Part shown: positions 6,230-31,996 of the stretch, piece after piece
Layout of the letters: the number at the start of each line of letters is the position of its first letter
Numbering within the stretch: position 1 is the first letter of the stretch
NCBI RefSeq assembly: GCF_001646785.1
Contig: NZ_LRRH01000090.1
Coordinates: forward strand, 1 to 34,413
DNA length: 34,413 bases
Direction: 5' to 3'
Source of the DNA: Rhodococcus phenolicus
GTDB lineage: Bacteria > Actinomycetota > Actinomycetes > Mycobacteriales > Mycobacteriaceae
Made by a program: the position numbers and the translations under genes
Notes under the pieces: generated by a model
Databases searched by the model: none
What the model was told of the DNA's origin: nothing
Seen by the model: the letters and a program-made list of their open reading frames with translations, nothing else

Positions 6230-6385
6230 GATCCGAATGGTACTGGTCTCCCGCGCGTGCTCGCCGGGGCCTGTGAGGTGGGCAGAAGCGCAGCGGCGGA
6301 TATCCGTTTAGGCTGGAGTGAACACGCGCAAATCGGGCGGGTCCATTCGGACGCGCCGACCCACGATCGATCGAAAGGACCCCGC

Positions 6386-6961: not shown

Positions 6962-6976
6962 TTCGCCGACGGCATG

Positions 6977-7007
6977 ATCCGGCCCCGGGAAGACACCGGG
7001 GCCGGAT
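6977..7007 (+). terminator. Hairpin after terD
   Basis: Perfect 12-bp stem (ATCCGGCCCCGG / CCGGGGCCGGAT) with a 7-base loop, starting 15 bases after the terD stop and followed by a weakly T-rich stretch. It separates terD from the DUF475 gene, so read-through may be limited or tuned. Confidence 0.8.
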
Positions 7008-7071
7008 TCGTCACTCCTGTTTGCAGTACCTCGCTGCATCGACCTGACTACTGACAAGAAAGGCCGCAGTC

Positions 7072-12587: not shown

Positions 12588-14204
12588 TCAGTGCGAGCCG
12601 GCGACCTCCGCGCCGATGCCCGTTTCGGCCCGTACCAGCATCTCGGCGAATTTCTCGTCGTTGTGGGCGCCACGGCCGTGGCGCTTCTCGCCGACCAACG
12701 ATCCGATGACGCACGCGGCCAGGCCGAGCGGCATGGTGATGATCACCGGAAGCTGGATCGTCAACGGGGCCGGGCCCTCGCCGAGCCACAGAGCCTGCGT
12801 GAACATGAGGCTGACGACGGTGGAGACCAGGCCGACGAGGATGCCCCACACCGCACCCGTGCTGTTGAACCGACGCCAGTTGAGGCTGAGCACCAGCGCG
12901 GGCAGGTGTGCGCTGCCGGCGACCATGAACGCCATGCCCATGAAGTACGTGATGTTCGTGTCGTCGCCGATGAGCATGGTCAGCACGATCGCGATGACGC
13001 TGAATGCGACCGCACCGATCCGCGCGACCCGTGCCTGCGCTTCGTCTTCCCGGACGCGCGCCGCGTCGTCGAGATTCTCCACCGCAGCCTTGCGTGTCAG
13101 CGTAGGCCACACGTCGCGAGCGAATGTGCCTGCGGCGGAGATCACGACGCCCGCGACGACGGCGACGATGCTCGCGAACGCGACCGCCGCGACGAGGGCG
13201 AGGGCGACCGAACCGCCGACCGTTCCGACACCGCCGCCGAGTTCGGTGACGAGGACGGGAGCTGCCAGGTTGCCGCCCGCACCGACCCGCTGCGCACCGT
13301 CGTCACCGAGAAGCGCTGCGGCACCGAAGCCCATGACGATGACGACCAGATAGAAGCCGCTGCACAGCGCGACCGTCCAGCCGAGAGAGCGCCGTGCGGT
13401 CCTGGCCTCGGGCACAGTGAAGAACCGGATGAGGATGTGCGCCATCCCCGCGGTGCCGAGTGCGAATGCCAGCGAGTACGAGATCAGGTTGAGTGCGCTC
13501 GTTTCGCCGAAGATCAGTCCGGGCGCCAGGATGGCGTCCCCGGCAGCGGCGTGGTCGGTGGCGGCGCCGAGGACCTTGGGGAAGCTGAATCCGAACTGGG
13601 CGAGAATACCCAGGCAGACGATGATCGCGAGGATCGACAGGATAGACGACTTGATGACCTGAACCCAGGTGGTCGCGAGCATGCCGCCGACGAACACGTA
13701 GATCCCCATGAGGGAACCCGCGACGATCACCGACAGCCAGAACGGAATGCCGGACACGGATTCGAGCAGCACGCCGGCCGCGACGAGCTGGGCCAGGAGA
13801 ACGAAGGTGCCGGTGGTGATCGTGCTGAGCGCGACCACGACCCGGACGTTGCGGGATTCGGTGCGGAACACCAGAACATCCGCGAGCGTGTACTTGCCCA
13901 GGTTGCGCATCTTCTCCGCGAGCAGGAACAGCACCGGCAGGAACGAGACGACCGACGTGAACAGGATGACCGTTCCGTCGACGCCCTTGGAGAAGATCAG
14001 CCCGGTCGTACCGAGAAAACTTCCCGCGGAGATGAATTCGCCCGCGATCGCGAATCCGTTCTGCCAGCTCGAGATCGAGCGTCCGGCCGCGAAGAACCCG
14101 TCGGCGCTCTTCGCGCGGCGGGACGCGGCGAACGTCACCCACAGGGTCAGTGAGATGACGGCGCTGCAGATCGCGATTGCCAGGTAGTCGGCGTCGCCGG
14201 TCAT
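12588..14204 (-). CDS. Sodium:solute symporter (ActP/MctC-like monocarboxylate transporter)
   Basis: 538-residue sodium:solute symporter with about 13 membrane helices. Family features: SADGFFAAGRSISSWQNGFA followed by GEFISAGSFLGTTGLIF, the segment GGMLATTWVQVIKSS, and TYFMGMAFMVAGSAHLPALV near the end. These match acetate/pyruvate/propionate permeases such as ActP and MctC. ATG at 14204 overlaps the stop of the DUF485 gene, a pairing typical of the yjcH-actP arrangement. A C-terminal cytoplasmic tail with NDEKFAEMLVRAETG is also typical of ActP. Its operon is led by the NTF2-like gene and shares an operator box with the catabolic operon at 15881, so it probably imports that pathway's carboxylate. 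Confidence 0.92.
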   Translation of the reverse strand: MTGDADYLAIAICSAVISLTLWVTFAASRRAKSADGFFAAGRSISSWQNGFAIAGEFISAGSFLGTTGLIFSKGVDGTVILFTSVVSFLPVLFLLAEKMRNLGKYTLADVLVFRTESRNVRVVVALSTITTGTFVLLAQLVAAGVLLESVSGIPFWLSVIVAGSLMGIYVFVGGMLATTWVQVIKSSILSILAIIVCLGILAQFGFSFPKVLGAATDHAAAGDAILAPGLIFGETSALNLISYSLAFALGTAGMAHILIRFFTVPEARTARRSLGWTVALCSGFYLVVIVMGFGAAALLGDDGAQRVGAGGNLAAPVLVTELGGGVGTVGGSVALALVAAVAFASIVAVVAGVVISAAGTFARDVWPTLTRKAAVENLDDAARVREDEAQARVARIGAVAFSVIAIVLTMLIGDDTNITYFMGMAFMVAGSAHLPALVLSLNWRRFNSTGAVWGILVGLVSTVVSLMFTQALWLGEGPAPLTIQLPVIITMPLGLAACVIGSLVGEKRHGRGAHNDEKFAEMLVRAETGIGAEVAGSH

Positions 14205-14539
14205 GAGAGTTCCCCTCGGTGGTCGGACACGGCGCGGATCGCGGCGTCGGCGGCCGGTTCGATGTAGGTGCGGGACAGGCGGAAATACGCCCACACCAGC
14301 ACCCAGGTGCCGGCGAACTGGGAGAACACCAGCCACAGGGACAGTGGAACGCCCAGCAGCGAGGTGCTGCCCAGCAGTTCGGGGAACGCGATGAAGCCGA
14401 CCAGGAAGCTCGCGAACAACACGATCGTGATCGTGCCCAGCGCGGTGGTGACCGTGCGGCGCCGGCGACGGAGTTCGGCGACCTCGGGAAGTTCGAGCAT
14501 CCGCGCCCAGGTCGGGTTCGGGGCGACGGTGCCGGTCAT
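14201..14539 (-). CDS. DUF485 membrane protein, symporter partner
   Basis: 112-residue membrane protein of the DUF485 (YjcH) family with two helices, GTITIVLFASFLVGFIAF and LWLVFSQFAGTWVLVWAYF, and a short basic N-terminus LRRRRRTVTTAL. The terminal RLSRTYIEPAADAAIR is the usual family ending. ATG at 14539 overlaps the NTF2-like stop, and its stop overlaps the symporter start; both are ATGA couplings. DUF485 proteins are regularly encoded next to acetate-type symporters, perhaps as an accessory subunit. Confidence 0.9.
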   Translation of the reverse strand: MTGTVAPNPTWARMLELPEVAELRRRRRTVTTALGTITIVLFASFLVGFIAFPELLGSTSLLGVPLSLWLVFSQFAGTWVLVWAYFRLSRTYIEPAADAAIRAVSDHRGELS

Positions 14540-15045
14540 GCCCGCACCGCCGCGCGGCGAGCGGAGTCGAGTGCGAAAAGGTTCTCGTCCCAGCCCGATT
14601 CGAGCGGACCGAAGAAATGGAAGCGAACCTGCTTGACCTTGTACAGCCAGCGGCCGTCGATCTTGACGACCTGGTCGGTGTACCGCCCGGCGGCGATACC
14701 GGCGACACCGTCGGTGACACACGGCTGCCACAGGAACGACCGGACCGTCGCCCGGTCACCGTCGAGGTCGATCTCGAGGTTGGTGATGAAGTGCCAGAAG
14801 GCCGTGAGTCCGTCTTCGGCGAGACCGGCGAAGAACGCGCGCATCTCGGTCCTGCCCCGTGGATGGGACAGGCCGTCGAATTCGCCGTCCTCGGTGAACA
14901 GGTCCATCAGGGCGTCCCAGTTCCCGTCGTCGAGGTGGCGGCAGTAGCGCGCGTCGAGCAGGCGAATGGCCTCGAGGTCTTCGAGGCGAGTGATGCGTTC
15001 GGCGATACCGGCCTCGCCGGTGGACTCCGCGGGGGTGGTGGTCAC
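14536..15045 (-). CDS. SnoaL/NTF2-like protein
   Basis: 169-residue cone-barrel (NTF2/SnoaL-like) protein. The pattern LEAIRLLDARYCRHLDDGNWDALMDLFTEDGEFD is the usual helix-helix-strand opening, and later strands include ATVRSFLWQPCV and RYTDQVVKIDGRWLY. GTG start at 15045 with GGAGG 8 bases upstream. First gene of a three-gene minus operon with DUF485 and the symporter. Members act as small isomerases, dehydratases or ligand-binding proteins; I cannot choose, but operon position suggests a step on, or binding of, the imported acid. Confidence 0.83.
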   Translation of the reverse strand: MTTTPAESTGEAGIAERITRLEDLEAIRLLDARYCRHLDDGNWDALMDLFTEDGEFDGLSHPRGRTEMRAFFAGLAEDGLTAFWHFITNLEIDLDGDRATVRSFLWQPCVTDGVAGIAAGRYTDQVVKIDGRWLYKVKQVRFHFFGPLESGWDENLFALDSARRAAVRA

Positions 15046-15078
15046 AGCGTGATCCTCCGAGTTAGAAACGGGATTGTT

Positions 15079-15094
15079 ATTAACGCACGTTCAT
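15079..15094. promoter_or_regulatory. Predicted TetR operator, transport-operon side
   Basis: ATTAACG-CA-CGTTCAT, a near-perfect 7+2+7 palindrome. On the minus strand it reads TGAACGTGCGTTAAT at 15093-15079, matching 13 of 15 bases of the box at 15825-15839 in the same orientation to transcription. It lies just past the predicted start site of the NTF2-like/symporter operon. Confidence 0.65.
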
Positions 15095-15103
15095 GTGAGG
15101 TGG

Positions 15104-15133
15104 ACCATAATCCAGGTCTTCTCCGGCGGTCAA
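15104..15133 (-). promoter_or_regulatory. Predicted promoter of the NTF2-like/DUF485/symporter operon
   Basis: TTGACC (15133-15128), 18-base spacer, TATGGT (15109-15104) on the minus strand, placing the start near 15097, just before the operator box. Confidence 0.5.
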
Positions 15134-15179
15134 GCCGTGGTTCTTGCTGGTCGCATACCCGGCCTCTACGCTCCGAGGC

Positions 15180-15782
15180 ATGAACACTCGGTCGGTTGGT
15201 GTGCAGATGGGGGTGCGGGAACGCATTCTGGAGACGGCGCTCGTCGAGTTCTACGCGTCCGGATTCCACGGGGCGACGATGCGCAACATCGCCAACAGTG
15301 CAGGTTGCAGCGCCGCGAACGTCTACAACCACTTCGAGAACAAGTCCGAGCTGCTCGTCGAGATCCTGCGACGCGCCAGTGACGAGCAGTTCACCGTCAC
15401 ACGCAACGCGCTGCGGAAGGCCGGTGCGCATCCGGCCGAGCGTTGGCGTGCCGCGGTCGTCGCACACGCCCTGTTCACGGCCCGGAATCCGCGCGCGTGC
15501 CTCGTGGCCAACTCCGAACTGCGCTACCTCGGGGAGGTGGACCGGAAGCGTGTCGTCGGCTCCCGCGACGCGCAGGAGCAGTTGTTCGTCGACATCGCCG
15601 AAGAGGGCATCGACCAGGGAGTCTTCTCGGTGCCTCACGTGCATCAGGCGGTCACGGCGGTGTTGACGATGTGTGCCGGTATCCCGCTGTGGTTCCGCCC
15701 GGACGGTCCGCTGACCGCGCAGGAGGTCGCCGACGACTTCGGTGTCTACGCGCTCAACCTCGTCGGATACCGCATTTCCTGA
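15180..15782 (+). CDS. TetR-family transcriptional regulator
   Basis: 200-residue TetR-type repressor. The N-terminal helix-turn-helix is clear: RERILETALVEFYASGFHGATM then RNIANSAGCSAANVYNHFENK, with SELLVEILRR after it. The C-terminal ligand domain ends DDFGVYALNLVGYRIS. ATG at 15180 has no well-placed Shine-Dalgarno, so leaderless translation is possible; an in-frame ATG at 15207 (MGVRERI) is an alternative. It lies between, and is expected to control, the minus transport operon and the plus catabolic operon, whose promoters share a box. The ligand is probably the acyl-CoA or acid of the pathway, by analogy with other TetR regulators of acyl-CoA operons. Confidence 0.9.
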   Translation: MNTRSVGVQMGVRERILETALVEFYASGFHGATMRNIANSAGCSAANVYNHFENKSELLVEILRRASDEQFTVTRNALRKAGAHPAERWRAAVVAHALFTARNPRACLVANSELRYLGEVDRKRVVGSRDAQEQLFVDIAEEGIDQGVFSVPHVHQAVTAVLTMCAGIPLWFRPDGPLTAQEVADDFGVYALNLVGYRIS

Positions 15783-15792
15783 GTCCTCGTCG

Positions 15793-15839
15793 TTGACTGG
15801 CGGGCGGGGTCATGCTGTACTGGGTGAACAAGCGTTAAT
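15793..15839 (+). promoter_or_regulatory. Predicted promoter and TetR operator of the catabolic operon
   Basis: TTGACT (15793-15798), 17-base spacer, TGTACT (15816-15821), then TGAACAAGCGTTAAT (15825-15839) over the expected start site. The last element matches the 15079 box at 13 of 15 positions. A bound repressor here would block transcription of the acyl-CoA dehydrogenase operon. Confidence 0.6.
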
Positions 15840-15880
15840 GACTTGCTTGCCCGCCTTCCCGGCCCATCGAGGGAGTATCC

Positions 15881-17074
15881 ATGACCCACCGGCCGTCCCA
15901 GCCACGCACCGACACGCCGCGTTACCTCACCGAGGACCGTCTCGCCATCCGTGATCTCGCGCGGGACTTCGCAATGACAAAGGTGCTGCCCGTCGCCAAT
16001 GAACTCGACCCCGTCCAGGGCACGATCCCGGATTCGCTGAAGAAGGAAATGGCCGAGATCGGCTTCTTCGGCATCATGATCCCCGAGGAACAGGGTGGCC
16101 TCGGACTCGGCGTGTTCGAGTACTGCCTGGTCGCCGAGGAACTGTCCCGGGCCTGGATGAGCGTGTCGGGCCTGCTCGCCCGCGGCAACGGCATGGGCGG
16201 CGGATTCACCGCCGAGCAGGAAGCGGTGCTGCTGCCGAAGGTCGCCCGCGGCGAATACCTCGGCGCCTATGCGCTGTCCGAGGCCGAGGCCGGATCCGAC
16301 GTCGCGAACATCTCGTGCCGTGCCACCCGCGACGGCGACGACTGGATAGTCAACGGCACCAAGATGTGGTGCACCTATGCGGACGAAGCCGACTACCTGG
16401 TCCTCTTCGCGCGCACCGACCCGGACAAGGACCCGGCGAAACCGCACCGCGGGATCAGCGCATTCCTCGTCGAGAAGGAACGCGGGGGGTTCCCCGAAGG
16501 GATCTCGGGCACGAAGGTCCGCAAGATCGGCTACTTCGGGTGGAGCACGTGGGAGCTGTCCTTCGACAACTTCCGTATTCCCGCCAGCGCGATGCTCGGC
16601 GAGGAGGGCAAGGGCTTCTATCTCGCCGTGTCGGGACTCGAGGTCGGTCGCGCCCACACCGCGGCCCGCGCGATCGGTCTGGCCCGTGCCGCACTCGAGG
16701 ACTCCATCGCCTACGTCCACACCCGCCGCCAGTTCGGCCGACCCATCGGCGATTTCCAGCACCTGCGCTTCAAGATCGCGAAGATGGCCGCCGACATCGA
16801 AGCTGCCCGGCAGCTCATGTACTCGGTCGCCACCGACATCGACACCGGACGGCGCTGCTCGCTCGAGGCGTCGATGTGCAAGCTCGTCGCCACCGAGATG
16901 GCCGAACAGGTCACCAGCGAAGCCGTGCAGATCCACGGCGGTGCCGGCTACACCACCGACTTCCAGGTCGAACGGCACTGGCGGGATGCGCGTCTGACGA
17001 AGATCTTCGAGGGCACCAGCGAGATCCAGATGCGCATCATCTCCGACGAGCTGCTCGGAAGGTCCGAAAGCTGA
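15881..17074 (+). CDS. Acyl-CoA dehydrogenase
   Basis: 397-residue FAD-dependent acyl-CoA dehydrogenase. Visible features: EEQGGLGLGVFEYCLVAEEL near the start, the flavin-binding strand YALSEAEAGSDVANISC, VHTRRQFGRPIGDFQ, and the signature QIHGGAGYTTDFQVERHWRD followed by FEGTSEIQ. E377 in that last motif is at the position of the catalytic base of medium-chain enzymes. ATG at 15881 follows GAGGGAG at 15869-15875. First gene of a six-gene operon in which every junction overlaps. It introduces the alpha-beta double bond in a CoA thioester; the chain or ring it acts on is unknown. Confidence 0.93.
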   Translation: MTHRPSQPRTDTPRYLTEDRLAIRDLARDFAMTKVLPVANELDPVQGTIPDSLKKEMAEIGFFGIMIPEEQGGLGLGVFEYCLVAEELSRAWMSVSGLLARGNGMGGGFTAEQEAVLLPKVARGEYLGAYALSEAEAGSDVANISCRATRDGDDWIVNGTKMWCTYADEADYLVLFARTDPDKDPAKPHRGISAFLVEKERGGFPEGISGTKVRKIGYFGWSTWELSFDNFRIPASAMLGEEGKGFYLAVSGLEVGRAHTAARAIGLARAALEDSIAYVHTRRQFGRPIGDFQHLRFKIAKMAADIEAARQLMYSVATDIDTGRRCSLEASMCKLVATEMAEQVTSEAVQIHGGAGYTTDFQVERHWRDARLTKIFEGTSEIQMRIISDELLGRSES

Positions 17075-17817
17075 TGACTCTCACGACATCCGATCGCATC
17101 ACCGTCGGTGACCGCACCACCGGTGCCGAGCGGGTCCTGGCGCCGCTGCTCACCGAAACGGGCATCGCACTGCCGGCCGGCAGTGTCCTCGCCGGCGCCC
17201 TGGCGGCCGAGCTGCTCACCGCCCCCGTCGACGGCGGGACCCGCACCGGCACCACATGGTGCGCGACCCGTCCGGTCGCCCACGACGACACCGTCCGCGC
17301 GGACGTACTGATCACCCGCGTCGCGGACGGCATCGTCGAACGGTTCGTCCGGCTCCTCGACGACGCCGGAACCGTGCGGGAGTACGGAACCGAAACGTGG
17401 CGCCTCGACGACCCCTCTGTCGCCCGGGCCCAGCCGGCCCTGGATTTCTGCACCGTGGCGTGGGGCGAGCTGCTGCGGGCACGTCTCGACCGGGACCTCG
17501 CCTTCGTTTCGTCGCTGTCGAGCTGGGACGGCACGATCGGCCTGCGCTGCGACGACCGGGAAGTGCACCTGCGGATCTACAAGGGCCGCATCGTCGATGT
17601 CACGCGCCGCACCCCGCACGGCGCGACCTTCACCTTCGTCGCCCCGGCGCACCTGTGGGCCGAGGTGGTCCTCGCCGAACGCGACGACTTCATGCGCCGC
17701 GCCATCGGAGGCGAATTCTCCTCCACCGGAGACGGATACGAGTATCTCCGTCTCACCAAACCGCTCCACATCGTCATCGCGCACGCGCGCGCACTCGCAC
17801 AGGAGGTCCGGCCGTGA
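17074..17817 (+). CDS. Hotdog-SCP2-like two-domain protein
   Basis: 247 residues, not assignable to a named family. Residues about 1-112 look like one hotdog (MaoC/thioesterase) domain: the strand pattern TRPVAHDDTVRADVLITRVADG then REYGTETWRLDD is characteristic. Residues about 120-247 resemble an SCP2 sterol-carrier fold: DREVHLRIYKGRIVDV, AHLWAEVVLAERDDFMRRAI and GDGYEYLRLTKPLHIVI. The MaoC hydratase-2 motif is absent, so it is probably not a hydratase in the usual sense. The A of the upstream TGA stop is the A of its ATG start, and its stop overlaps the next GTG. It could bind or shuttle the hydrophobic acyl-CoA intermediate. Domain calls are by eye. Confidence 0.75.
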   Translation: MTLTTSDRITVGDRTTGAERVLAPLLTETGIALPAGSVLAGALAAELLTAPVDGGTRTGTTWCATRPVAHDDTVRADVLITRVADGIVERFVRLLDDAGTVREYGTETWRLDDPSVARAQPALDFCTVAWGELLRARLDRDLAFVSSLSSWDGTIGLRCDDREVHLRIYKGRIVDVTRRTPHGATFTFVAPAHLWAEVVLAERDDFMRRAIGGEFSSTGDGYEYLRLTKPLHIVIAHARALAQEVRP

Positions 17818-18689
17818 TCGAAGCGCGCTACCTCGACGTCGGCGGTGCCCTCGGCTTCGTCGAGATCGTCACCCCCGACGCGCATCCGGCGCCGGACACG
17901 TTGCCCACCGTGCTGTGCATCCATACCGCCGGGCAGAGCGGGGTGCAGTACCGGCACGTCGCCCGTGACCTCGCCGCCCGCGGCTACCGTGTCCTCGTTC
18001 CCGATCTTCCCGGCCACGGACGTTCCGAACCCGCCCCGGACGGGCCGGTCACGTCGCTGACCGCCTACGGCGACTGGCTCTGCGCCGTTCTCGACGAACT
18101 CGCGATCGAACGCCCCTACGTCGTCGGCTGCTCGATCGGCGGCAAGCTGACCCTCGAACTGTCCGTCCGTCCGGACCGTCCGCTCGCCGGTGCCATCGCG
18201 ATGGAAGCCGAAGCCGGACCCGGTCGCGTCAACGTCGCCGGTCTGCGGCGCGAGCTCGAGGATGTCGCCGGCCCGGCCCGGGCGGAACGCACCTACCTCG
18301 GAACGTTGGCCTCGGTCGGCACGTCGGTGCCCGACGCCGCGGCACGCGTGATCGCCACGATGCACAAGCGCGAGGATCCCGAGATCTCCTCGTCCGATCT
18401 GATCGGCTGGGGTGGCCACGACGTCCGCGACCGCCTGCACCTGGTCGACGCTCCGATCCACCTCGTTGCGGGACTGGACGATCCGTGGATCCGCGCTACC
18501 GACGTCGAGCAGGTCGCCGTGCGGATCAACGCGGCGCATCCGGGTCTCGCGCGGTACACCGGCCTGACCGGGGTCGGGCACTATCCGATGGAGGAGATCG
18601 ACGACTTCGCCGCCCTCGTCGACACCTGGATCCGTGAACTGGACGAAACCGCCGGGGCGGAACCGGATTCCGAGGAGATCGCGTCGTGA
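17814..18689 (+). CDS. Alpha/beta hydrolase of the catabolic operon
   Basis: 291-residue alpha/beta hydrolase. Nucleophile elbow VVGCSIGGKL (S107), PDLPGHGRSEPAPDG (63-77) as the strand-3 loop, an Asp candidate in VAGLDDPW and the catalytic His in GVGHYPME. Unlike most relatives the oxyanion strand reads LCIHTAGQSG rather than HG. GTG start overlaps the upstream stop as GTGA. Its place between a dehydrogenase and a CoA ligase suggests a thioester, lactone or C-C bond hydrolysis step. Specific reaction unknown. Confidence 0.9.
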   Translation: MIEARYLDVGGALGFVEIVTPDAHPAPDTLPTVLCIHTAGQSGVQYRHVARDLAARGYRVLVPDLPGHGRSEPAPDGPVTSLTAYGDWLCAVLDELAIERPYVVGCSIGGKLTLELSVRPDRPLAGAIAMEAEAGPGRVNVAGLRRELEDVAGPARAERTYLGTLASVGTSVPDAAARVIATMHKREDPEISSSDLIGWGGHDVRDRLHLVDAPIHLVAGLDDPWIRATDVEQVAVRINAAHPGLARYTGLTGVGHYPMEEIDDFAALVDTWIRELDETAGAEPDSEEIAS

Positions 18690-20389
18690 CAGCCACCGGC
18701 ACCACTTCCCTGACCGGTCTCCTGGCCGAGCTGGTCGCCGCCGACCCCGACGCGCCGCTCGCGTTCGACGTGGCCGGTGACGAGATCCTGACGTGCACCC
18801 GCGCCCGCTTCGGCGACCGGGTCGAAGCCGTGCGCACCGAACTCGCCGAAGCCGGAATCGAACCAGGACAGTGCATCGCAGTCATGCTGCCGAACTGGTC
18901 CGACGCAGTGGTGTGGCAGTTCGCCGCATCCGCGCTCGGAGCCCACGTCATCGGTGTCAACACGCGCTACAACACCGGAGAGGTCGCGCACATCCTCGAC
19001 GCGGCGCGGCCGGCGGTCGTCGCCGTGGCCGCGTCCTTCCACGGCCTCGACCTGTTCGGAACACTGAGCGCCGCAGCCGGATCCGTACCCGAGGTCGCAA
19101 CCCCCGCTGTCGCGGTCGTGACCGGTCCGTCCGCTGGGGCGACCCCCGCGGACCCGACGGGATTCGATCTCGGCGGTGGAGCATGGCTGGTCGGCAGCGG
19201 CGACCTCCGCGGCACCCGCGTACCCCGCACACCCGACACCGCGACGATCACCGCGGCCGGTGCGGTCGCCGATCCGTCGGACCCCCTCGCGGCGGCGTTC
19301 ACGACCTCCGGCTCCACCGGCACGCCGAAACTTGCCGCACACCGGGATTCGGCGGTGGTCCGGCACGGCCGCGCCGATGCGGAGATCATGGGAGTCACCC
19401 CGGGCGACGTCACGCTGTGTGTGCTGCCGGTGTCCGGAGTGTTCGGTTTCAGCACCGCCATGGCGACTCTCGCCGGCGGCGGAGCCCTGCTCATGGAACC
19501 GGTGTTCGACGCCGCGGCGGTTCTGCGCCGCATGCAGGAACTGAAGGTCACGCACGTCGTCGGCGGCGACGACCTGTTCGGCCGGTTGTACGACACCTGG
19601 CACGCCGAGCAGCGGTCCGATCTGTCGTCGTTGAAATGGCTGGGTATCGCAGATTTCCTGGGGCGCTCCCACGCCATCGCCCGCTGGGCCCGCGACGAGT
19701 TCGGCGCACTGACCTCCGGCGTGTTCGGTTCGTCCGAGGTGTTCGCGCTCACGCTGTTGTGGTCCGACCGGGACCCCGAGTCGGTGCGCTGGAACGGGGG
19801 AGGCCGCCCCGTCGCCTCCTCGATCGAGGTGCGGATCGTCGACCCGGTCGACGACCGCGTGCTGCCCGACGGCGAACAGGGCGAACTGCAGTTGCGTGGC
19901 CCCAACGTCGTCGACGCCTACCTCGGCAATCCCGATGCCGCACGGCGTGCATTCACGGCCGACGGCTGGTTCCGCAGTGGAGACCTCGCGGTCGCCACGG
20001 GTGACGGCGGCTACCGATTCGTGTGCCGCATGGGAGATGTCCTGCGGCTGCGCGGTTTCCTCGTCGACCCCGCGGAGATCGAGCGCCGCCTCGCGCAGCA
20101 TCCCGATGTGGGAGTCGTCAAGGTCGTCGGGATCACCGGCGAGGGCGGCTACACCAGTGCCGTCGGCTTCGTCGTCCTCACCGACGACGCGTCCGCCGGC
20201 ACCGACGCCGGTGTGCTGAAGCAATGGTGCCGTGCGGAACTCGCCGCATTCAAGGTGCCGTCGGCTGTGCACATCGTCGAACACATGCCCACCACCGTGG
20301 GCGGAAACGGAACGAAGATCCGGGCCGTCGAACTGCGCGAATGGGCGCAGAACTGGACCGATCGTGAAAGGGACCACCGCCGTGACTGA
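18686..20389 (+). CDS. AMP-dependent acid-CoA ligase
   Basis: 567-residue adenylate-forming ligase. P-loop motif TTSGSTGTPK (206-215), then GVFGSSEVFALTLLW in place of the usual YGxTE motif, GWFRSGDLA in the hinge region and the C-terminal lysine in GGNGTKIRAV. The substitution of SSEVF for the aromatic-Gly-x-Thr-Glu core is shared by some unusual acid ligases and may affect substrate choice. An Ala/Pro-rich stretch between about 135 and 200 is longer than usual. GTG start overlaps the hydrolase stop. It should activate the imported carboxylic acid as its CoA ester, the first intracellular step. Confidence 0.9.
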   Translation: MTATGTTSLTGLLAELVAADPDAPLAFDVAGDEILTCTRARFGDRVEAVRTELAEAGIEPGQCIAVMLPNWSDAVVWQFAASALGAHVIGVNTRYNTGEVAHILDAARPAVVAVAASFHGLDLFGTLSAAAGSVPEVATPAVAVVTGPSAGATPADPTGFDLGGGAWLVGSGDLRGTRVPRTPDTATITAAGAVADPSDPLAAAFTTSGSTGTPKLAAHRDSAVVRHGRADAEIMGVTPGDVTLCVLPVSGVFGFSTAMATLAGGGALLMEPVFDAAAVLRRMQELKVTHVVGGDDLFGRLYDTWHAEQRSDLSSLKWLGIADFLGRSHAIARWARDEFGALTSGVFGSSEVFALTLLWSDRDPESVRWNGGGRPVASSIEVRIVDPVDDRVLPDGEQGELQLRGPNVVDAYLGNPDAARRAFTADGWFRSGDLAVATGDGGYRFVCRMGDVLRLRGFLVDPAEIERRLAQHPDVGVVKVVGITGEGGYTSAVGFVVLTDDASAGTDAGVLKQWCRAELAAFKVPSAVHIVEHMPTTVGGNGTKIRAVELREWAQNWTDRERDHRRD

Positions 20390-21617
20390 TTCCGTCGCCG
20401 ATGCCACCGACGTGGTGATCTGTGAACCGCTGCGCACTCCCGTCGGCCGATACGGTGGCATGTTCGTCGACGTGCCGGCGACCGACCTCGCCGCACGCGT
20501 CATCTCGGAGTTGCTGTCCCGCACCGGGATCGATCCGGAGAAGATCGACGACGTGATCTTCGGCCAATGTTACCCCAACGGGGAGGCCCCGGCGATCGGC
20601 CGCGTCGCCGCGCTCGACGCGGGCCTTCCCGTCACCGTGCCGGGGCTGCAACTGGACCGCCGATGCGGCTCCGGTCTGCAGGCAGTGCTCGACGCGGCGA
20701 TGCGCGTGCAGACCGGTGTGGCGGACATCGTGATCGCCGGCGGTGTCGAATCGATGAGCCGTGCCGAGTACTACACCGAGTCGATGCGCTGGGGCGCCAA
20801 GGGTGCGCCGGCGGCCCTGCACGACCGGCTCGCGCGTGGTCGCGTCACCGCCGGCGGCCGCAGCCATCCGGTCCCCGGCGGCATGCTCGAAACGGCGGAG
20901 AACCTGCGTCGCAAGTACGGCATCTCTCGACTCGAACAGGACGAACTCGCCGTCGAATCGCATCGCCGTGCGGTCGCCGCGATCGACTCCGGGAAGTTCG
21001 CGGAGGAGATCGTCCCGGTCACCGTGCCGCAGCGCAAGGGCGAGCCGACCGTGATCGACCGCGACGAGCATCCGCGTGCCGGCACCACCGTCGAGACCCT
21101 CGCGAAGCTGCGCCCCATCATGGGCAAGCAGGATCCCGCCGCGACCGTGACCGCGGGCAATGCGAGCGGTCAGAACGACGGTGCCGCAGCATGTGTCGTC
21201 ACCTCCCGGGCCACCGCCGATCGTCTCGGACTGCGGCCCCTCGGCCGGCTCGTCACCTGGGCGGTCGCCGGTGTCGCGCCGTCCGAGATGGGTATCGGGC
21301 CGGTGCCGTCCACCGAGAAGGCGCTGCAGCGGGCGGATCTGTCGCTCTCGGACATGGACCTCATCGAACTCAACGAAGCGTTCGCGGCGCAGGCGCTCGC
21401 GGTGACACGTGAATGGAAGTTCACCGCAGCCGATTTCGATCGCACCAATGTGAACGGGTCCGGTATCTCGCTGGGGCACCCCGTCGGTGCGACCGGAGTG
21501 CGGATCCTCGCGACCCTGCTGCGCGAACTCGACCGGCGCGGTGCCCGCTACGGTCTCGAGACGATGTGCATCGGCGGCGGGCAGGGCCTGACCGCGATCT
21601 TCGAGCGCGTCTCGTGA
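20382..21617 (+). CDS. Thiolase (acetyl-CoA C-acyltransferase)
   Basis: 411-residue thiolase with a complete catalytic set: nucleophile C95 in RRCGSGLQA, NEAF (331-334), H366 in GHPVGATG and C396 in MCIGGGQG. GTG at 20382 overlaps the end of the ligase gene by 8 bases and follows GAAAGGG. It would cleave a 3-ketoacyl-CoA released by the upstream oxidation, giving acetyl- or propionyl-CoA. No enoyl-CoA hydratase or 3-hydroxyacyl-CoA dehydrogenase is encoded in the operon, so those steps come from elsewhere or the route differs from ordinary beta-oxidation. Confidence 0.94.
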   Translation: MTDSVADATDVVICEPLRTPVGRYGGMFVDVPATDLAARVISELLSRTGIDPEKIDDVIFGQCYPNGEAPAIGRVAALDAGLPVTVPGLQLDRRCGSGLQAVLDAAMRVQTGVADIVIAGGVESMSRAEYYTESMRWGAKGAPAALHDRLARGRVTAGGRSHPVPGGMLETAENLRRKYGISRLEQDELAVESHRRAVAAIDSGKFAEEIVPVTVPQRKGEPTVIDRDEHPRAGTTVETLAKLRPIMGKQDPAATVTAGNASGQNDGAAACVVTSRATADRLGLRPLGRLVTWAVAGVAPSEMGIGPVPSTEKALQRADLSLSDMDLIELNEAFAAQALAVTREWKFTAADFDRTNVNGSGISLGHPVGATGVRILATLLRELDRRGARYGLETMCIGGGQGLTAIFERVS

Positions 21618-22756
21618 CCGCCCGCCCGCTCGACGGGGTGCAGGTCGTCGATCTGTCCAGCTTCGTCGCCGGCCCCACCGCGGGCCGCATGCTCGCCGAG
21701 CTCGGGGCCGACGTCATCCGTATCGACCCGGTCGCCGGGGCCGTCGACGGCGGGCGCTGGCCCCTCACCGACGGTGGCGGCAGTCTCTACTGGACCGGAC
21801 TCAACCAGTGGAAACGGTCACTGGCGGTGGATCTGCGCAGCGACGAGGGCCGCGCGGTCGTCGTCGATCTGATCGCGCGGGCGGGCATCGTCCTCGAGAA
21901 CGCGGCCCATGCCCCGTGGCTCTCCCACGAGGCGTTGGCCGCTCGCCGGCCCGATCTGATCCACCTGCACATCGCCGGCAACGCCGACGGCAGCCCGGCC
22001 GTCGACTACACGGTCAACGCCGCGGTCGGTCTGCCGTTGATGACCGGGCCGGTCGAGCACACCGCGCCCGTGAACCACGTGCTGCCCGCGTGGGATCTGA
22101 TCACCGGCGTGCACGCCGCGCTCGGTATCGTCACGGCGCTGCGTCGGCATGAACAGACCGGCGAGGGCAGTTACCTGGAGCTGGCGCTCGACGATGTCGC
22201 CGTCTCCGCGGTCGCGAGCATGGGCTGGCTCGCCGAGGCCGAGGCGCGGGGGACCGGCCGCGACCGGTCCGGCAACGCCCTGTTCGGCAGCTACGGCTCG
22301 GACTTCCCGACGAGCGACGGCCGGTCGGTGATGATCGTCGGCCTCACCCCGGGGCAGTGGCGGGCGCTGGTCGAGGTCACCGGAACCGCCGACGTGTTCG
22401 CGGCACTCGAGAAGCAACGTGGGCTCGATCTCGGGGCCGAAGGCGACCGGTTCGCGGCGCGGGATGCGATCACCGCGATCCTGGCGCCGTGGTTCGCCTC
22501 GCGCACCCTCGCGCAGGTCGAAGCAGACCTTGCGGGCACCCGGGTGCTGTGGGCGCCGTACCGGACGATGGACGAGGTCGCCGCCGATCTCGCGGCGCGG
22601 CCCGACGCGGTGGTGCAGTACGTCGACCAACCCGGCATCGGGCCCGTCCTCACCGCGCGATCGCCACTGCGCTGGAACGGTCGTTACACCGAGGCTCGGC
22701 CCGCGCCGCGGCACGGACAACACACCGGCGAGATCCTCGGATCGCTTCCGATCTGA
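21614..22756 (+). CDS. CaiB/BaiF family CoA-transferase or 2-methylacyl-CoA racemase-like protein
   Basis: 380-residue class III CoA-transferase. Family features: LDGVQVVDLSSFVAGPTAGR at the N-terminus, LAELGADVIRIDPV, the active-site aspartate D161 in LPAWDLITGVHAAL, and the C-terminal WAPYRTMDEVAADL. About 380 residues fits both transferases and alpha-methylacyl-CoA racemases. GTG start overlaps the thiolase stop. Last gene of the operon and followed by a hairpin. As a racemase it would handle a branched acid; as a transferase it would recycle CoA from product to incoming acid. Both fit the operon. Confidence 0.9.
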   Translation: MTARPLDGVQVVDLSSFVAGPTAGRMLAELGADVIRIDPVAGAVDGGRWPLTDGGGSLYWTGLNQWKRSLAVDLRSDEGRAVVVDLIARAGIVLENAAHAPWLSHEALAARRPDLIHLHIAGNADGSPAVDYTVNAAVGLPLMTGPVEHTAPVNHVLPAWDLITGVHAALGIVTALRRHEQTGEGSYLELALDDVAVSAVASMGWLAEAEARGTGRDRSGNALFGSYGSDFPTSDGRSVMIVGLTPGQWRALVEVTGTADVFAALEKQRGLDLGAEGDRFAARDAITAILAPWFASRTLAQVEADLAGTRVLWAPYRTMDEVAADLAARPDAVVQYVDQPGIGPVLTARSPLRWNGRYTEARPAPRHGQHTGEILGSLPI

Positions 22757-22995: not shown

Positions 22996-23952
22996 ATGCC
23001 GCTTGCCTTGTGTGCCTCGTCGCACTCGCCGCTGATCGGCTTGAACGATCCGGCACCGGACATCGTGAACGAGGTGTACGAACAACTCGACGCCGCAAAG
23101 GCATTCGTGGAAGCGTTCGATCCCGAGCTCGTGGTCGTCTTCGGCCCGGACCACTACAACGGATTCCTGTACGACGTGATGCCCTCGTTCTGCGTCGGTG
23201 CAGCAGCGGCCTCGGTGGGTGACTACGGCCTGCCGAGCGGGCCACTCGAGGTGGATCGCGCCGCCGCGTACGCGATCACGCGGCACGCACTCGACTCGGG
23301 TGTCGACGTCGCATTGTCCGAAGCGATGCAGGTCGACCACGGGTTCGTCCAGCCTCTGCTCTTCCTGTTCGGTTCCGCGGACAGGATCCCGTCCCTCGTT
23401 CCGGTGTTCGTCAACTGCGTGGCCGAGCCGCTCGGCCCGGCGAGCCGGGCCCGTCTGCTGGGGGAGGCGGTGGGGCGGGTGCTGGGAGAGTCCGGGAAGA
23501 GGGTGCTCATCGTCGGGTCCGGCGGTCTCTCGCACGATCCGCCCGTTCCCCGGCTGGCGGATGCGGCTCCGGAGGTTGCCGCGCGGCTCACGCACGGGCG
23601 CAACCCGACTGCGCAGCAGCGTCGGGAGCGCGAGTCTCGTACCGTCGCCGCCGCCGGCGCGTTCGCTGCGGGATCCACGGATTTCCACGACCTCAATCCG
23701 GAGTGGGATTCCCTGGTGCTCGATGCGTTCGAGTCGGGCGATATCACTGCGTTCGACGAGAAGCCGAACGACTGGTTCATCGGGGAGGGTGGCCACTCCG
23801 CCCATGAGGTCCGTACCTGGATCGCGGCCTACGCTGCCCTGTCCACGCAGGGTTCGTACGAGATGACCAGCCGGTATTACCGACCGATCAAGGAGTGGTT
23901 CGCCGGGTTCGCCGTCACCACTGCGATGCAGAAGGAAGTTGTAGCGCGATGA
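22996..23952 (+). CDS. mhpB: 3-carboxyethylcatechol 2,3-dioxygenase (MhpB/HppB)
   Basis: 318-residue extradiol dioxygenase of the LigB/MhpB class, which cleaves 3-(2,3-dihydroxyphenyl)propionate with Fe(II). The N-terminus ALCASSHSPLIGLNDP is the family signature. Histidines at H10, H53 (FGPDHYNGF), H115 (QVDHGFVQP) and H180 (GGLSHDPP) line up with known active-site residues, including the His115/His179 pair of the E. coli enzyme. ATG at 22996 follows GACGGAG. Its stop overlaps the start of mhpC (ATGA). The upstream leader carries two GTGTATATAC elements, pointing to control by the IclR protein at 24837. In Rhodococcus this gene is called hppB. Confidence 0.95.
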   Translation: MPLALCASSHSPLIGLNDPAPDIVNEVYEQLDAAKAFVEAFDPELVVVFGPDHYNGFLYDVMPSFCVGAAAASVGDYGLPSGPLEVDRAAAYAITRHALDSGVDVALSEAMQVDHGFVQPLLFLFGSADRIPSLVPVFVNCVAEPLGPASRARLLGEAVGRVLGESGKRVLIVGSGGLSHDPPVPRLADAAPEVAARLTHGRNPTAQQRRERESRTVAAAGAFAAGSTDFHDLNPEWDSLVLDAFESGDITAFDEKPNDWFIGEGGHSAHEVRTWIAAYAALSTQGSYEMTSRYYRPIKEWFAGFAVTTAMQKEVVAR

Positions 23953-24806
23953 CGATATGGGACGACCTCGGTTCCGTGGCTCATACGATCGAGTTCCGCG
24001 AGATCGACGGATGGCGAACCCGTGTGCTGCGGGCGGGATCAGGGCCCGCGCTGGTGCTCATGCACGGCACGGGCGGTCACCTGGAGGCATTCTCACGCAA
24101 CATACCGGCACTTGCCGAGCACTTCTCCGTCATCGCCTACGACTTTCCCGGGCAGGGCTACACGACTCCGGCCGATCGCGACCTCGAACTCGATGCCTAC
24201 GTCAACCACCTCGCTGCCCTGCTCGATGACCTCGGTCTGGAGCGGGCGCACCTGTCCGGCGAGTCGCTCGGCGGCTGGGTAGCGCTCAAATTCGCTGTCG
24301 CGCACCCCGACCGACTGCGCCGGATCGTGCTCAACACACCGGGTGGCACCATGGCGGCTCCAGAGGTGATGGCGCGGATCCGGGAACTGAGTCAGGCCGC
24401 CGCCGACGAGCCCACCGCGGAGCGCATCCGCGCGCGTCTCGAGTGGCTCATGGCCGATCCCGCCAGTGTCACCGACGAACTCGTCGGGTGCCGCCGAGCG
24501 ATCTACTCGCAGCCGGGGTTTGCGGAGTCGATGCGCCACGTCCTGTGCCTGCAGGATCCCGACGTGCGCCGGCGCAACATGGTGACCGATGCCGATCTGG
24601 CGGCGGTGACGGTGCCGGTGCTGGTGATCTGGACCAGCGACGACCCGTCCGGCCCCGCAGCGGCCGGAATGGACATGGCCGACAAGCTGCCGAACGGGCA
24701 GTTCCTCTTCATCGACGGCGCGGGCCACTGGCCCCAGTGGGAACAGCGGGAGACTTGCGACAAGGCCGTGATCGGGTTCCTGTGCGACGGCGATACGGGA
24801 CGGTGA
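23949..24806 (+). CDS. mhpC: 2-hydroxy-6-oxonona-2,4-dienedioate hydrolase (MhpC/HppC)
   Basis: 285-residue C-C bond hydrolase of the alpha/beta fold that splits the ring-fission product into succinate and a hydroxypentadienoate. Motifs: LVLMHGTGGHLEAFSRN oxyanion region, YDFPGQGYTTP, nucleophile S106 in SGESLGGWVA, Asp at 231/232 in WTSDDPSG and H260 in DGAGHWPQWEQ. It is translationally coupled to mhpB by ATGA. The usual following genes mhpD/E/F (hydratase, aldolase, dehydrogenase) are not in this window. It ends 30 bases from the convergent regulator gene. Confidence 0.92.
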   Translation: MTIWDDLGSVAHTIEFREIDGWRTRVLRAGSGPALVLMHGTGGHLEAFSRNIPALAEHFSVIAYDFPGQGYTTPADRDLELDAYVNHLAALLDDLGLERAHLSGESLGGWVALKFAVAHPDRLRRIVLNTPGGTMAAPEVMARIRELSQAAADEPTAERIRARLEWLMADPASVTDELVGCRRAIYSQPGFAESMRHVLCLQDPDVRRRNMVTDADLAAVTVPVLVIWTSDDPSGPAAAGMDMADKLPNGQFLFIDGAGHWPQWEQRETCDKAVIGFLCDGDTGR

Positions 24807-24836
24807 GAGACCCGTGTGCCGAGCGCCGGACGATGC

Positions 24837-25538
24837 TCAGGCGTCAATTATCGCTCGGGCGATCTCTCCGGCAGCCCGTACAACCTCCGGTGCGGCCGCG
24901 GCCAGCTGATCCTCTCGGTGGCTCATGAGAGTGAGGCACGCGGTCGGGTGAGAATTCGCGATCGGAGCGGCGACCGCGTAGACGCCGGATTCGATCTCGC
25001 CCGAGCTCGTGGCGTATCCGTGCCGGCGTGCCTCGGCGACGGCCTCGGGTTCGTCGGGCACCTCCGGACCGGCGGCGAGGAGGGCATAGCCGGCCGCGCC
25101 GCGATCCAGCAACGTGCGCATCCCGGCACGGAAGGAGATGTGCTGTGCGACCGTGACCGGCTCGACGACCTCGATGGAGACGGCCTCGTCCCTCTCGGCT
25201 ACGAACAGGTGGACGGTGCAACCGGCGTGGTCGGCGAGGCGCCGCATCACCGGCGTGGCGATCTCGCGCAACGCCGGCAGATAGGCTGTGGACAGGGAGG
25301 CCAGGCGTGAACCGGGACGGTACACACCGTCGGAGCCGGGTGTCACGAACCCGAAATCGCGTAGCGTCTGCAGGATTCGGTATGCGATCGAACGGTGGAC
25401 CCCGAGCTCCTCGGCAAGCCGCTGAACGGTCATGCCGGTGGGGGAATCCACCACCGCGAGCAGCGCGCTGAGCCCGCGGGCCAGTGTCTGGCTACCGACC
25501 TGGGGCTGAGGCCGGGAGCGTGCATCCGATGTCGTCAT
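24837..25538 (-). CDS. IclR-family regulator of the hpp genes (HppR-type)
   Basis: 233-residue IclR regulator. The winged helix-turn-helix covers about residues 20-80: [21 protein letters not shown] then [21 protein letters not shown]. The C-terminal IclR effector domain follows ([42 protein letters not shown]). ATG at 25538 is preceded by an unusually long (about 75-base) predicted leader. Placed convergent to mhpC and divergent from mhpA, as in the R. globerulus hpp cluster (hppR). A TATAAT on the minus strand (25625-25620) is embedded in one of the GTGTATATAC-like sites, suggesting autoregulation. Whether it activates or represses is open: E. coli MhpR activates, but sites at start points here favour repression. 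Confidence 0.93.
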
Positions 25539-25579
25539 GCCGGATCGGGCCGGGTCGAGGCACATTCGCGCATGCGGTG

Positions 25580-25599
25580 CGCACAGACGCATTTGTGCG
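25580..25599. repeat. Inverted repeat in the hppR leader
   Basis: CGCACA-N8-TGTGCG within the untranslated leader of the IclR gene, nested in a wider ATTCGC/GCGAAT pair (25564-25602). It could be an RNA hairpin or another protein site. Confidence 0.35.
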
Positions 25600-25619
25600 A
25601 ATAAAGCAACATGCAACTC

Positions 25620-25630
25620 ATTATATACAC
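25620..25630 (-). promoter_or_regulatory. Predicted hppR -10 overlapping an IclR-type site
   Basis: Minus-strand GTGTATATAA (25630-25621) contains the perfect -10 TATAAT (25625-25620). No good -35 is seen, so activator help or an extended signal may be needed. The arrangement suggests self-control of the regulator. Confidence 0.5.
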
Positions 25631-25647
25631 GGCGTGCATTTCCAGTG

Positions 25648-25715
25648 TTGACACGGCAATCCCTGTTCGACATAGTCTGTGTGTATATAGAAGCGTCATG
25701 TTCGTTAATTACAAC
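25648..25715 (+). promoter_or_regulatory. mhpA promoter, IclR-type site and conserved leader box
   Basis: TTGACA (25648-25653), 17-base spacer and CATAGT (25671-25676) form a good sigma-70-type promoter. GTGTATATAG (25681-25690) covers the expected start, and GTTCGTTAATTACAAC (25700-25715) lies in the leader. The 36 bases from 25680 to 25715 match the monooxygenase leader at 30121-30156 at 29 positions. Confidence 0.68.
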
Positions 25716-25731
25716 GCAACCAGGGGGCGAC

Positions 25732-27381: not shown

Positions 27382-27465
27382 GGGCGGCGGGAACTCTCAC
27401 GGCCGTTCCCGGGAGTTGTTCTCCGCCTGGTACTTTCGGTATGGACGCGATGGTGTCCGACGGCA

Positions 27466-27478
27466 GGACATATTGTCC
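27466..27478. promoter_or_regulatory. Perfect inverted repeat upstream of the crotonase gene
   Basis: GGACA-TAT-TGTCC, preceded by a looser GGAC-N8-GTCC at about 27443-27458. It lies 108 bases before the crotonase start in a 205-base gap after mhpA that holds no other gene. It differs from the GTGTATATAC sites, so a different regulator is likely. Confidence 0.4.
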
Positions 27479-27586
27479 ATCTACGTGCGTGAACGGCCGG
27501 GTGTCGGGAAGCTCGTGACATTTCGCGCTTCCGATTCGCGGCCGGCCGGGAGGGAAGCGTCACCGGACCAACAGAGGAGTAAGAGG

Positions 27587-29992: not shown

Positions 29993-30069
29993 CTCGACCT
30001 CCGTATCAAATAATGAACACAGTCACTCGAAAAATACACAAAAACGGTAGCCGACGGCGTGTCACCCCA

Positions 30070-30092
30070 CAAGGCTCCGAATCGAAGCCTTG
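30070..30092. promoter_or_regulatory. Inverted repeat at the monooxygenase -35
   Basis: CAAGGCT-N9-AGCCTTG; its right arm overlaps the predicted -35 (30090-30095). A protein bound here would compete with or contact RNA polymerase. Confidence 0.4.
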
Positions 30093-30156
30093 ACGGAGAT
30101 GAAGTCCTCCCGACAGAATGTGTGCATATAGAATCAAACAGTTCGTTAATTACAAC
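30090..30156 (+). promoter_or_regulatory. Monooxygenase promoter with IclR-type site and shared leader box
   Basis: TTGACG (30090-30095), 18-base spacer and CAGAAT (30114-30119). GTGCATATAG (30122-30131) differs from the mhpA site in one base, and GTTCGTTAATTACAAC (30141-30156) is identical to the box at 25700-25715 at the same distance. This indicates shared control with mhpA or a copied promoter. Confidence 0.65.
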
Positions 30157-30194
30157 ATCACGTAGGTTGTGTGACGGAGAGGGGGCCCGAACCC

Positions 30195-31991: not shown

Positions 31992-31996
31992 GCCCG

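Follow-up and report, generated by a model that had tools for sequence, protein, structure and literature searches.

A 34,413-nucleotide contig of Rhodococcus phenolicus (NZ_LRRH01000090.1; contig C5 of a 6.28-Mb draft genome), referred to below as the window, carries at positions 12588-22756 a locus whose genes probably make up the lower half of a pathway that degrades methyl-substituted aromatics by ortho cleavage. To this scheme as a whole we assign a probability of about 0.62. Its final part, leading from the coenzyme A (CoA) ester methylsuccinyl-C1-CoA to pyruvate and acetyl-CoA, appears highly probable; the preceding lactone half and the substrate are put forward as a proposal. The scheme builds on gene content, synteny, conserved active-site residues, a shared operator and completing genes, all of them read from sequence, and from these we infer all reactions, the substrate, and what two of the proteins, NTF2 and hotdog-SCP2, do.

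Two divergent units flank a gene for a TetR-family regulator. The minus-strand unit encodes a symporter of the SSF family, its DUF485 partner and an NTF2-fold protein; the plus-strand unit runs from an acyl-CoA dehydrogenase (ACAD) through a protein with a MaoC-like hotdog and an SCP2 domain (hotdog-SCP2), an alpha/beta hydrolase, a CoA ligase and a thiolase to a CaiB/BaiF protein, each stop codon overlapping the next start (Table 1). An initial annotation, which left out the TetR gene of this locus, had read the remaining genes as an uptake-activation-cleavage system for a branched or cyclic carboxylic acid that lacks an enoyl-CoA hydratase and a hydroxyacyl-CoA dehydrogenase and matches no known pathway. 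The symporter, the DUF485 and NTF2-like proteins and the six-gene operon were all found at the coordinates of Table 1, and a system of this kind for a branched acid is what the locus looks like. Among its ten proteins, Pfam and NCBIfam gave no match to enoyl-CoA hydratase or 3-hydroxyacyl-CoA dehydrogenase families; a gene of the crotonase family is present at 27587-28546, beyond the region. The statement that no known pathway fits has to be corrected: a mesaconyl-CoA branch, composed of a CaiB isomerase, a hydratase and a lyase, would explain the gap, so that neither of the two absent enzymes is needed.

For comparison, 35 loci of named genomes were collected by a scan of GTDB genomes with a hotdog-SCP2 alignment (loci are given L numbers, contigs of the window genome C numbers). 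Contig ends cut some of these loci, and their genes were called with a simple model of codon use derived from the window; the starts of some are uncertain.

The best solved match of the CaiB protein is 2-methylfumaryl-CoA isomerase (8apq, 350 bits; 7xkg, 347), the next different protein scoring 102. Residues named for the Roseiflexus enzyme in the available portion of PMC9196870 are Arg47, Asp165, Arg314, Asn100, Arg75, Phe101 and Arg104. With a constant offset of 21 between this numbering and that of the 8apq chain, the first five correspond to R48, D161, R310, N96 and R75 of the window protein, all invariant across 12 operon CaiBs. This makes CaiB a candidate mesaconyl-CoA C1-C4 isomerase (Mct, or 2-methylfumaryl-CoA isomerase), and the non-classical step suspected in the initial annotation would be this isomerization.

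The dehydrogenase points in the same direction. In solved structures its fifth match (275 bits) is 6es9, the methylsuccinyl-CoA dehydrogenase (MCD) of PMC5798300, whose accessible text names '6ES9' three times. According to that text, the site that takes the terminal carboxyl group is lined by Arg252, Arg376 and Arg421, and mutation of Arg252 abolishes activity. Upon alignment, R101, R263 and E377 of the window ACAD fall on Arg252, Arg421 and Glu535 of 6es9; it thus shares with MCD (6es9, 8ciw; ethylmalonyl-CoA pathway) the catalytic glutamate and two of the three substrate arginines. R101 and R263, together with E377, are kept in all 24 operon ACADs that have a letter there. None of four other solved ACADs compared has arginine at the Arg252 place, and at the Arg421 place three of the four have glutamine and FadE3 arginine. 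We regard the window enzyme as a candidate methylsuccinyl-C1-CoA dehydrogenase, claiming that it may work like MCD without classing it as one.

For the lower half, no single argument is stronger than an exchange of enzymes in the same places of another operon. A 1.9-Mb plasmid of Sinorhizobium mexicanum (NZ_CP041241.1) carries a syntenic operon in one run of genes; the plasmid stretches are unannotated and the genes named here are our own calls. Identities to the window proteins are 35% for hotdog-SCP2, 52% for the hydrolase, 46% for the ligase and 78% for the thiolase. The place of the window ACAD is held by an MCD-type enzyme of 555 residues, which among solved structures matches 6es9 best (565 bits). 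The same operon contains an Mct-like CaiB, a FAS1-type hydratase of a different branch from the actinobacterial one, a RipC/CitE-type lyase, both subunits of an electron transfer flavoprotein and a 2-hydroxyacid dehydrogenase, and it is preceded by a PrpB-like and followed by a LeuC-like gene. Plasmid records searched at E<=1e-60 gave no match besides Sinorhizobium for either hotdog-SCP2 or the ligase.

Candidates for the two completing enzymes are found at the operon of several actinobacterial relatives. A CitE-type lyase and then a MaoC-family hydratase lie 3' of CaiB in L032, L038, L040 and L041; in L045 this hydratase adjoins CaiB. The gene order in L055 is thiolase, CitE-type lyase and another MaoC hydratase, of the RipB/Ich type. 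Two matches were left out of the statements on adjacency: a 32% catA-like one in L042 and, in L049, a 35% lyase at a distance from the operon. The window genome possesses a lyase and a hydratase next to each other at C96:45920-47759, with 65% and 69% identity to the copies of L032 (Prescottella). For the L041 hydratase the closest solved relatives are Rv0216 (315 bits) and beta-methylmalyl-CoA dehydratase (97 bits); the L041 lyase is matched best by the model for citramalyl-CoA lyase RipC/Ccl, whose cut-off of 375 it does not reach (180 bits).

Mct-like CaiB (E<=1e-80) was detected in 61 of 151 genomes of the family. Together with the hydratase (E<=1e-60) it occurs in 52 of the 151, CaiB alone in 9, the hydratase alone in 5 and neither in 85, counts which are not corrected for kinship; in 12 genomes the two genes are direct neighbours. 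The thiolase search matched many paralogues, and this gene was left out of the co-occurrence counts. Hotdog-SCP2 co-occurs with the hydratase in 10 of 11 genomes and with CaiB in 10 of 11, which is weak evidence because all 10 sampled genomes of the window's genus have the hydratase. The association of CaiB with the hydratase over 151 genomes, along with the adjacency in 12, is stronger evidence, though likewise uncorrected for kinship.

The same genes recur in other arrangements. A module of Mycobacteriales (L131, L132, L135; L065:10264-14766) consists of a short MaoC-like gene and a GntR gene (both identified by eye), a dehydrogenase 41% like that of the window, a CitE-type lyase and an Rv0216-like hydratase; an Mct-like CaiB (46-48%) is included in L131, L132 and L135, not in L065. 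Dehydrogenases of this module have arginine at the Arg421 place only. The best solved match of the hydratase is Rv0216 and that of the window dehydrogenase is FadE3, which we take to be Rv0215c and, by locus number, the neighbour of Rv0216; for this reason the Rv0216/FadE3 pair may act on methylsuccinyl- or mesaconyl-type CoA esters. In L128, L129 and L134 an Mct-like CaiB stands directly beside a thiolase 68-72% like that of the window, and dehydrogenases and a gene resembling short-chain dehydrogenases/reductases are located near this pair in L129 and L134, hinting at further pathways in which thiolase and CoA isomerase are combined.

On these grounds the following route is proposed. 4-Methylcatechol, derived from p-cresol or p-toluate, would be cleaved elsewhere to 3-methylmuconate, which would give 3-methylmuconolactone. 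The symporter would import the lactone or a related acid, and the ligase would attach CoA to the only free carboxyl group of the lactone. After a shift of the double bond by the NTF2-fold protein, by hotdog-SCP2 or by both, the hydrolase would open the ring to 4-methyl-3-oxoadipyl-CoA, to be split by the thiolase into acetyl-CoA and methylsuccinyl-C1-CoA. The dehydrogenase would convert the latter to mesaconyl-C1-CoA, CaiB would move CoA from C1 to C4, and the MaoC-type hydratase and the CitE-type lyase would lead from mesaconyl-C4-CoA through citramalyl-CoA to pyruvate and acetyl-CoA. That mesaconyl-C1-CoA should be the substrate of Mct would follow from the structures, since thiolysis would leave CoA beside the methyl-bearing carbon.

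The entry compound is suggested by the neighbourhood of the operon in relatives. The gene for catechol 1,2-dioxygenase (catA) or phenol hydroxylase (pheA1) is present within the fetched stretch of seven of the 35 loci, in five arrangements. In R. koreensis, R. wratislaviensis and R. jostii it stands 3' of the thiolase, in Williamsia upstream of the symporter, in R. yunnanensis behind the hydratase and in Saccharopolyspora rhizosphaerae immediately behind the ligase; Halopolyspora has catA, catB and pcaR in front of the hydratase. The chance of finding at least five such loci among 35, assumed to be independent, is 2e-6 with two catA genes per 6.28 Mb and 1e-4 at a pessimistic gene density; the figure is given for five cases because L030, L034 and L036 form one clade. 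These seven loci are the reason for proposing that a lactone is opened as its CoA ester. Since phenol hydroxylase, catechol 1,2-dioxygenase and once muconate cycloisomerase adjoin the operon, the branched acid is likely 3-methylmuconolactone, or 4-methyl-3-oxoadipate, from 4-methylcatechol. Of the substrate suggested by the initial annotation, the branched nature is thereby retained, and an alicyclic or terpenoid acid is not. In the window genome itself, catABC and pheR-pheA2-pheA1 are situated on C184 (catC and catR assigned by eye) and a second catA on C32. Between catB and pcaR of Halopolyspora (L045:2052-2537) there is a short open reading frame, by eye a remnant of an iron-containing alcohol dehydrogenase or maleylacetate reductase.

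The same lower half might, however, be entered from a different lactone or branched dicarboxylic acid that gives a 4-methyl-3-oxodicarboxyl-CoA and does not come from a methylcatechol. The evidence for the lower half is independent of the aromatic context, 28 of the 35 loci show no catA or pheA1 at 50% identity within the fetched stretch, nor was either found near the Sinorhizobium operon, and the transporter is of a general carboxylate type. On the other hand, catA or pheA1 next to the operon in five separate arrangements, once with catB, speaks against such an entry, and the pairing of CoA ligase and hydrolase suits the CoA ester of a lactone. We consider this alternative unlikely, though the most serious one.

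Directly behind the operon lies an mhp-type meta-cleavage cluster (22996-28546) with genes for 3-carboxyethylcatechol 2,3-dioxygenase, an MhpC-like hydrolase, an IclR regulator, an MhpA-like hydroxylase and the crotonase-family protein. Its MhpB (3-carboxyethylcatechol 2,3-dioxygenase) scores over the cut-off and its MhpA reaches 840 against 853 for the best model, so one might think of beta-oxidation of a phenylpropanoid side chain that feeds this neighbour, in which the crotonase-family gene lies. Yet the cluster adjoins the operon only in L022 among L012-L056 (L022 ends after MhpA), two ACAD arginines are provided for a terminal carboxylate, and a mesaconyl-CoA isomerase would have no role. 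A phenylpropanoid side chain was rejected, the mhp neighbour not being conserved, and we regard this explanation as very improbable.

Still less can be said for a redundant 3-oxoadipate route for unsubstituted catechol, despite catA, catB and pcaR adjoining the operon in relatives and a thiolase close to 3-oxoadipyl-CoA thiolases: it would end in succinyl-CoA, which needs no dehydrogenase, Mct, hydratase or lyase, and catABC is already present in the window genome. Unsubstituted catechol is disfavoured because it would need none of the lower genes. Non-classical beta-oxidation acting on an alicyclic or terpenoid acid, as envisaged earlier, has scarcely any probability left, as its distant matches (cyclohexanecarboxyl-CoA dehydrogenase, 215 versus a cut-off of 575; the ligase, 136 versus 792) are far below cut-off, for which alicyclic acids were rejected, and the dicarboxylate-binding arginines and the linkage with Mct, hydratase and lyase point elsewhere. 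Steroid ring C/D and bile-acid routes were rejected too, no IpdAB- or BaiCD-type match being found among the operon proteins.

A number of observations weigh against a methylaromatic lower pathway as proposed here. The CaiB protein lacks Phe101 and Arg104, CoA contacts in the available description of the Roseiflexus enzyme (PMC9196870), and has alanine at both places (A97 and A100); its best model, TIGR04253, is matched at 362, below the equivalog cut-off of 725 (the Saccharopolyspora copy scores 444 and the Sinorhizobium copy 397). The best solved match of the ACAD is FadE3 (292 bits), not MCD. With its 397 residues it is devoid of the N-terminal extension of about 170 residues, its alignment beginning at 6es9 residue 167, and F219 replaces Arg376 and Y130, the canonical tyrosine, the methyl-pocket Ala285 that the accessible part of PMC5798300 gives for MCD. 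Only weakly does the hydrolase resemble enol-lactonases (PcaDC, 63 versus a cut-off of 390; TIGR02427, 51 versus 256). The hydratase and lyase of the window genome sit on another contig, unlinked to the operon, and carry no operator match (none in L065, even with up to two mismatches allowed). Genome G023 has the operon and neither an Mct-like CaiB at E<=1e-80 nor a hydratase at E<=1e-60, and therefore mesaconyl-CoA would be handled otherwise there. CaiB is present at only 11 of the 35 loci, being absent from L030, L034 and L036 although catA or pheA1 adjoins them, and the ACAD is missing from 11. As for the aromatic context, the window's own neighbour is the meta-cleavage cluster and not catA, blastp against our gene calls for the 44 kb that surround the Sinorhizobium operon found nothing like catA or catB, and the accessible text of the p-cresol transcriptome paper on R. 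opacus 1CP (PMC13101518) does not name the operon.

Chemically, the proposed route is a variant of the methyl-3-oxoadipate pathway; new are the gene set, the activation by a CoA ligase and the use of Mct. In the mml route for 4-methylmuconolactone of Pseudomonas reinekei and Ralstonia eutropha, 4-methyl-3-oxoadipate, its CoA ester and thiolysis to methylsuccinyl-CoA and acetyl-CoA are likewise proposed, as far as the available text of PMC6449761 goes. No families of the MmlI/MmlJ (muconolactone isomerase) or MmlFG (3-oxoacid CoA-transferase) type are among the listed matches of the ten locus proteins. Here, in contrast, a CoA ligase and an alpha/beta hydrolase take over, and a dehydrogenase and Mct are added for methylsuccinyl-CoA. 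R. rhodochrous N75 reportedly puts CoA on 3-methylmuconolactone before ring opening, with a ligase subunit of about 62 kDa (Cha, Cain and Bruce 1998). The window ligase has 567 residues and 59.3 kDa; the same order of steps would explain why ligase and alpha/beta hydrolase stand in place of a CoA transferase.

Below the thiolase, the itaconate/methylsuccinate cluster of Pseudomonas and Cupriavidus follows the same course from methylsuccinyl-CoA via mesaconyl-CoA and citramalyl-CoA to pyruvate and acetyl-CoA. In the portion of PMC12290011 available, this route differs in using the C4 ester and needing no Mct, and for Cupriavidus necator the C1 ester is called a dead-end product. With the Mct, Meh and citramalyl-CoA lyase segment of the 3-hydroxypropionate bi-cycle in filamentous phototrophs, the locus shares a CaiB closest to Mct with its catalytic residues kept, and a hydratase and lyase that accompany CaiB in relatives. 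It differs from that segment in that CaiB is joined to thiolase, ligase and dehydrogenase in a degradation operon and in the actinobacterial hydratase, which among solved structures is closest to Rv0216. For R. opacus 1CP, the accessible sections of PMC13101518 (2026) take p-cresol through catechol 1,2-dioxygenase and 3-methylmuconate cycloisomerase, later steps having 'remained speculative'; p-cresol did not bring up the pca cluster in a triple phenol-hydroxylase mutant, and the paper itself argues that this mutant turns to meta cleavage. The Creative Commons-licensed PMC literature, outside which most subscription journals fall, contained no assignment of these genes to this p-cresol route that we could find.

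A shared operator site, found by comparison of the loci, connects the two units. The 14-bp pattern GAACNNNCGTTAAT is matched exactly at only two places of the 6.28-Mb genome, one before each unit. Seven further sites have one mismatch; with one mismatch allowed, the reversed control pattern gave two. Exact sites, one or more per locus, are present in 18 of the 20 named Rhodococcus, Gordonia, Williamsia and Prescottella loci and in none of the 15 others. A repeat search of both promoters found no inverted repeats. As the pattern precedes each unit, the NTF2-DUF485-SSF unit and the ACAD operon probably form one regulon under TetR.

The association of the genes at the locus is not due to chance. 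By the hotdog-SCP2 protein, the closest named relatives are Rhodococcus sp. HM1 (84%) and R. zopfii (81%). Hotdog-SCP2 occurs in all 35 loci (by construction), hydrolase and ligase in 34 each, TetR in 33, NTF2 in 28, the ACAD in 24, the thiolase in 23 and SSF with DUF485 in 17. Nine loci without SSF and DUF485 have a metabolite/H+ symporter of the MHS type in the cluster instead. From these counts, NTF2, TetR, hotdog-SCP2, hydrolase and ligase are the constant part.

Hotdog-SCP2 had no Pfam or NCBIfam match at E 0.001. Its label in the initial annotation was nevertheless upheld by an AlphaFold2 model (predicted local distance difference test score, pLDDT, 94.2; predicted template modelling score, pTM, 0.90), which matches the hotdog of R-hydratase at the N-terminus and sterol carrier protein 2 at the C-terminus in the PDB, and profile search agrees. 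The MaoC active-site motif GDxxPxH is absent from the hotdog domain of the window and 27 of the 35 loci and present in eight, counted on stop-to-stop frames (the hotdog genes of L042 and L053 are fused to TetR in the gene calls). It is kept as GDxHPLH in relatives from Amycolatopsis, Halopolyspora, Actinomycetospora, Intrasporangium, Acrocarpospora, Prauserella and Sinorhizobium. Most invariant residues fall in the SCP2 half. By these features the protein is a degenerate hydratase kept in the operon and, the motif being lost in the window's clade, it is unlikely to be the missing hydratase.

Y34, D39 and H85 of the NTF2 protein align with Tyr, Asp and His of the bile-acid dehydratase BaiE, where they are presumably catalytic. 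The protein is a candidate for the double-bond shift, and hotdog-SCP2 could share this task or carry the CoA ester. With regard to a bile-acid function, the likeness to BaiE is limited to the NTF2 fold and the three aligned residues. In the hydrolase, S106, D222 and H255 (counted from codon 17817) are invariant in 35 sequences. The thiolase belongs to the PRK06205 subfamily (NCBIfam), close to 3-oxoadipyl-CoA thiolases, and is a candidate for the substrate given in Table 1.

Table 1. Genes and candidate operator sites of the R. phenolicus locus; bit scores are given with the model cut-off where noted.
Feature	Position	Strand	Support
SSF-family carboxylate symporter (ActP/MctC-like)	12588-14204	-	PF00474, 222 bits; MctC model 441 vs cut-off 670
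DUF485 partner of symporter	14201-14539	-	PF04341
NTF2-fold SnoaL_4 protein, candidate lactone isomerase	14536-15045	-	PF13577
Candidate TetR operator GAACGTGCGTTAAT, 5' of NTF2-DUF485-SSF	15079-15092	-	pattern GAACNNNCGTTAAT
TetR-family regulator (TetR_C_24)	15180-15782	+	PF17932, PF00440
Candidate TetR operator GAACAAGCGTTAAT, 5' of ACAD operon	15826-15839	+	
Acyl-CoA dehydrogenase (ACAD), candidate methylsuccinyl-C1-CoA dehydrogenase	15881-17074	+	PF00441/02770/02771
MaoC-like hotdog + SCP2 domain protein	17074-17817	+	profile search, AlphaFold2 model
Alpha/beta hydrolase, candidate lactone-CoA / enol-lactone hydrolase	17814-18689	+	PF12697, PF00561
AMP-forming CoA ligase, candidate 3-methylmuconolactone-CoA synthetase	18686-20389	+	PF00501; PRK06164 645 vs cut-off 677
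Thiolase, candidate 4-methyl-3-oxoadipyl-CoA thiolase	20382-21617	+	NF004853 725 bits, cut-off 551
CaiB/BaiF class III CoA-transferase, candidate mesaconyl-CoA C1-C4 isomerase (Mct)	21614-22756	+	

The remainder of the window holds, at 28559-34413, a carboxylesterase-type hydrolase, a flavin monooxygenase, a second AMP ligase and a gene resembling KstD or 4-oxocyclohexanecarboxylate dehydrogenase, the latter cut by the contig end. At the other end (1-8163) lies a stress-resistance cluster of TerD, StiP, C-C bond lyase and DUF475-TerC genes.

Taken more widely, we see an even chance that Actinobacteria and at least one rhizobial megaplasmid share a complete lower pathway for methylaromatics, in which ligase, hydrolase and a degenerate hydratase-SCP2 protein would open the lactone as its CoA ester and Mct, in common with the CO2-fixing 3-hydroxypropionate bi-cycle, would rescue methylsuccinyl-C1-CoA. 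The locus offers candidate genes for those steps of p-cresol degradation in R. opacus 1CP which the available text of PMC13101518 calls speculative. It would also place Mct, described from filamentous phototrophs in the accessible part of PMC9196870, in aerobic degradation of aromatics, and it suggests that Mct-like CaiB proteins are part of a general methylsuccinyl/mesaconyl-CoA module.

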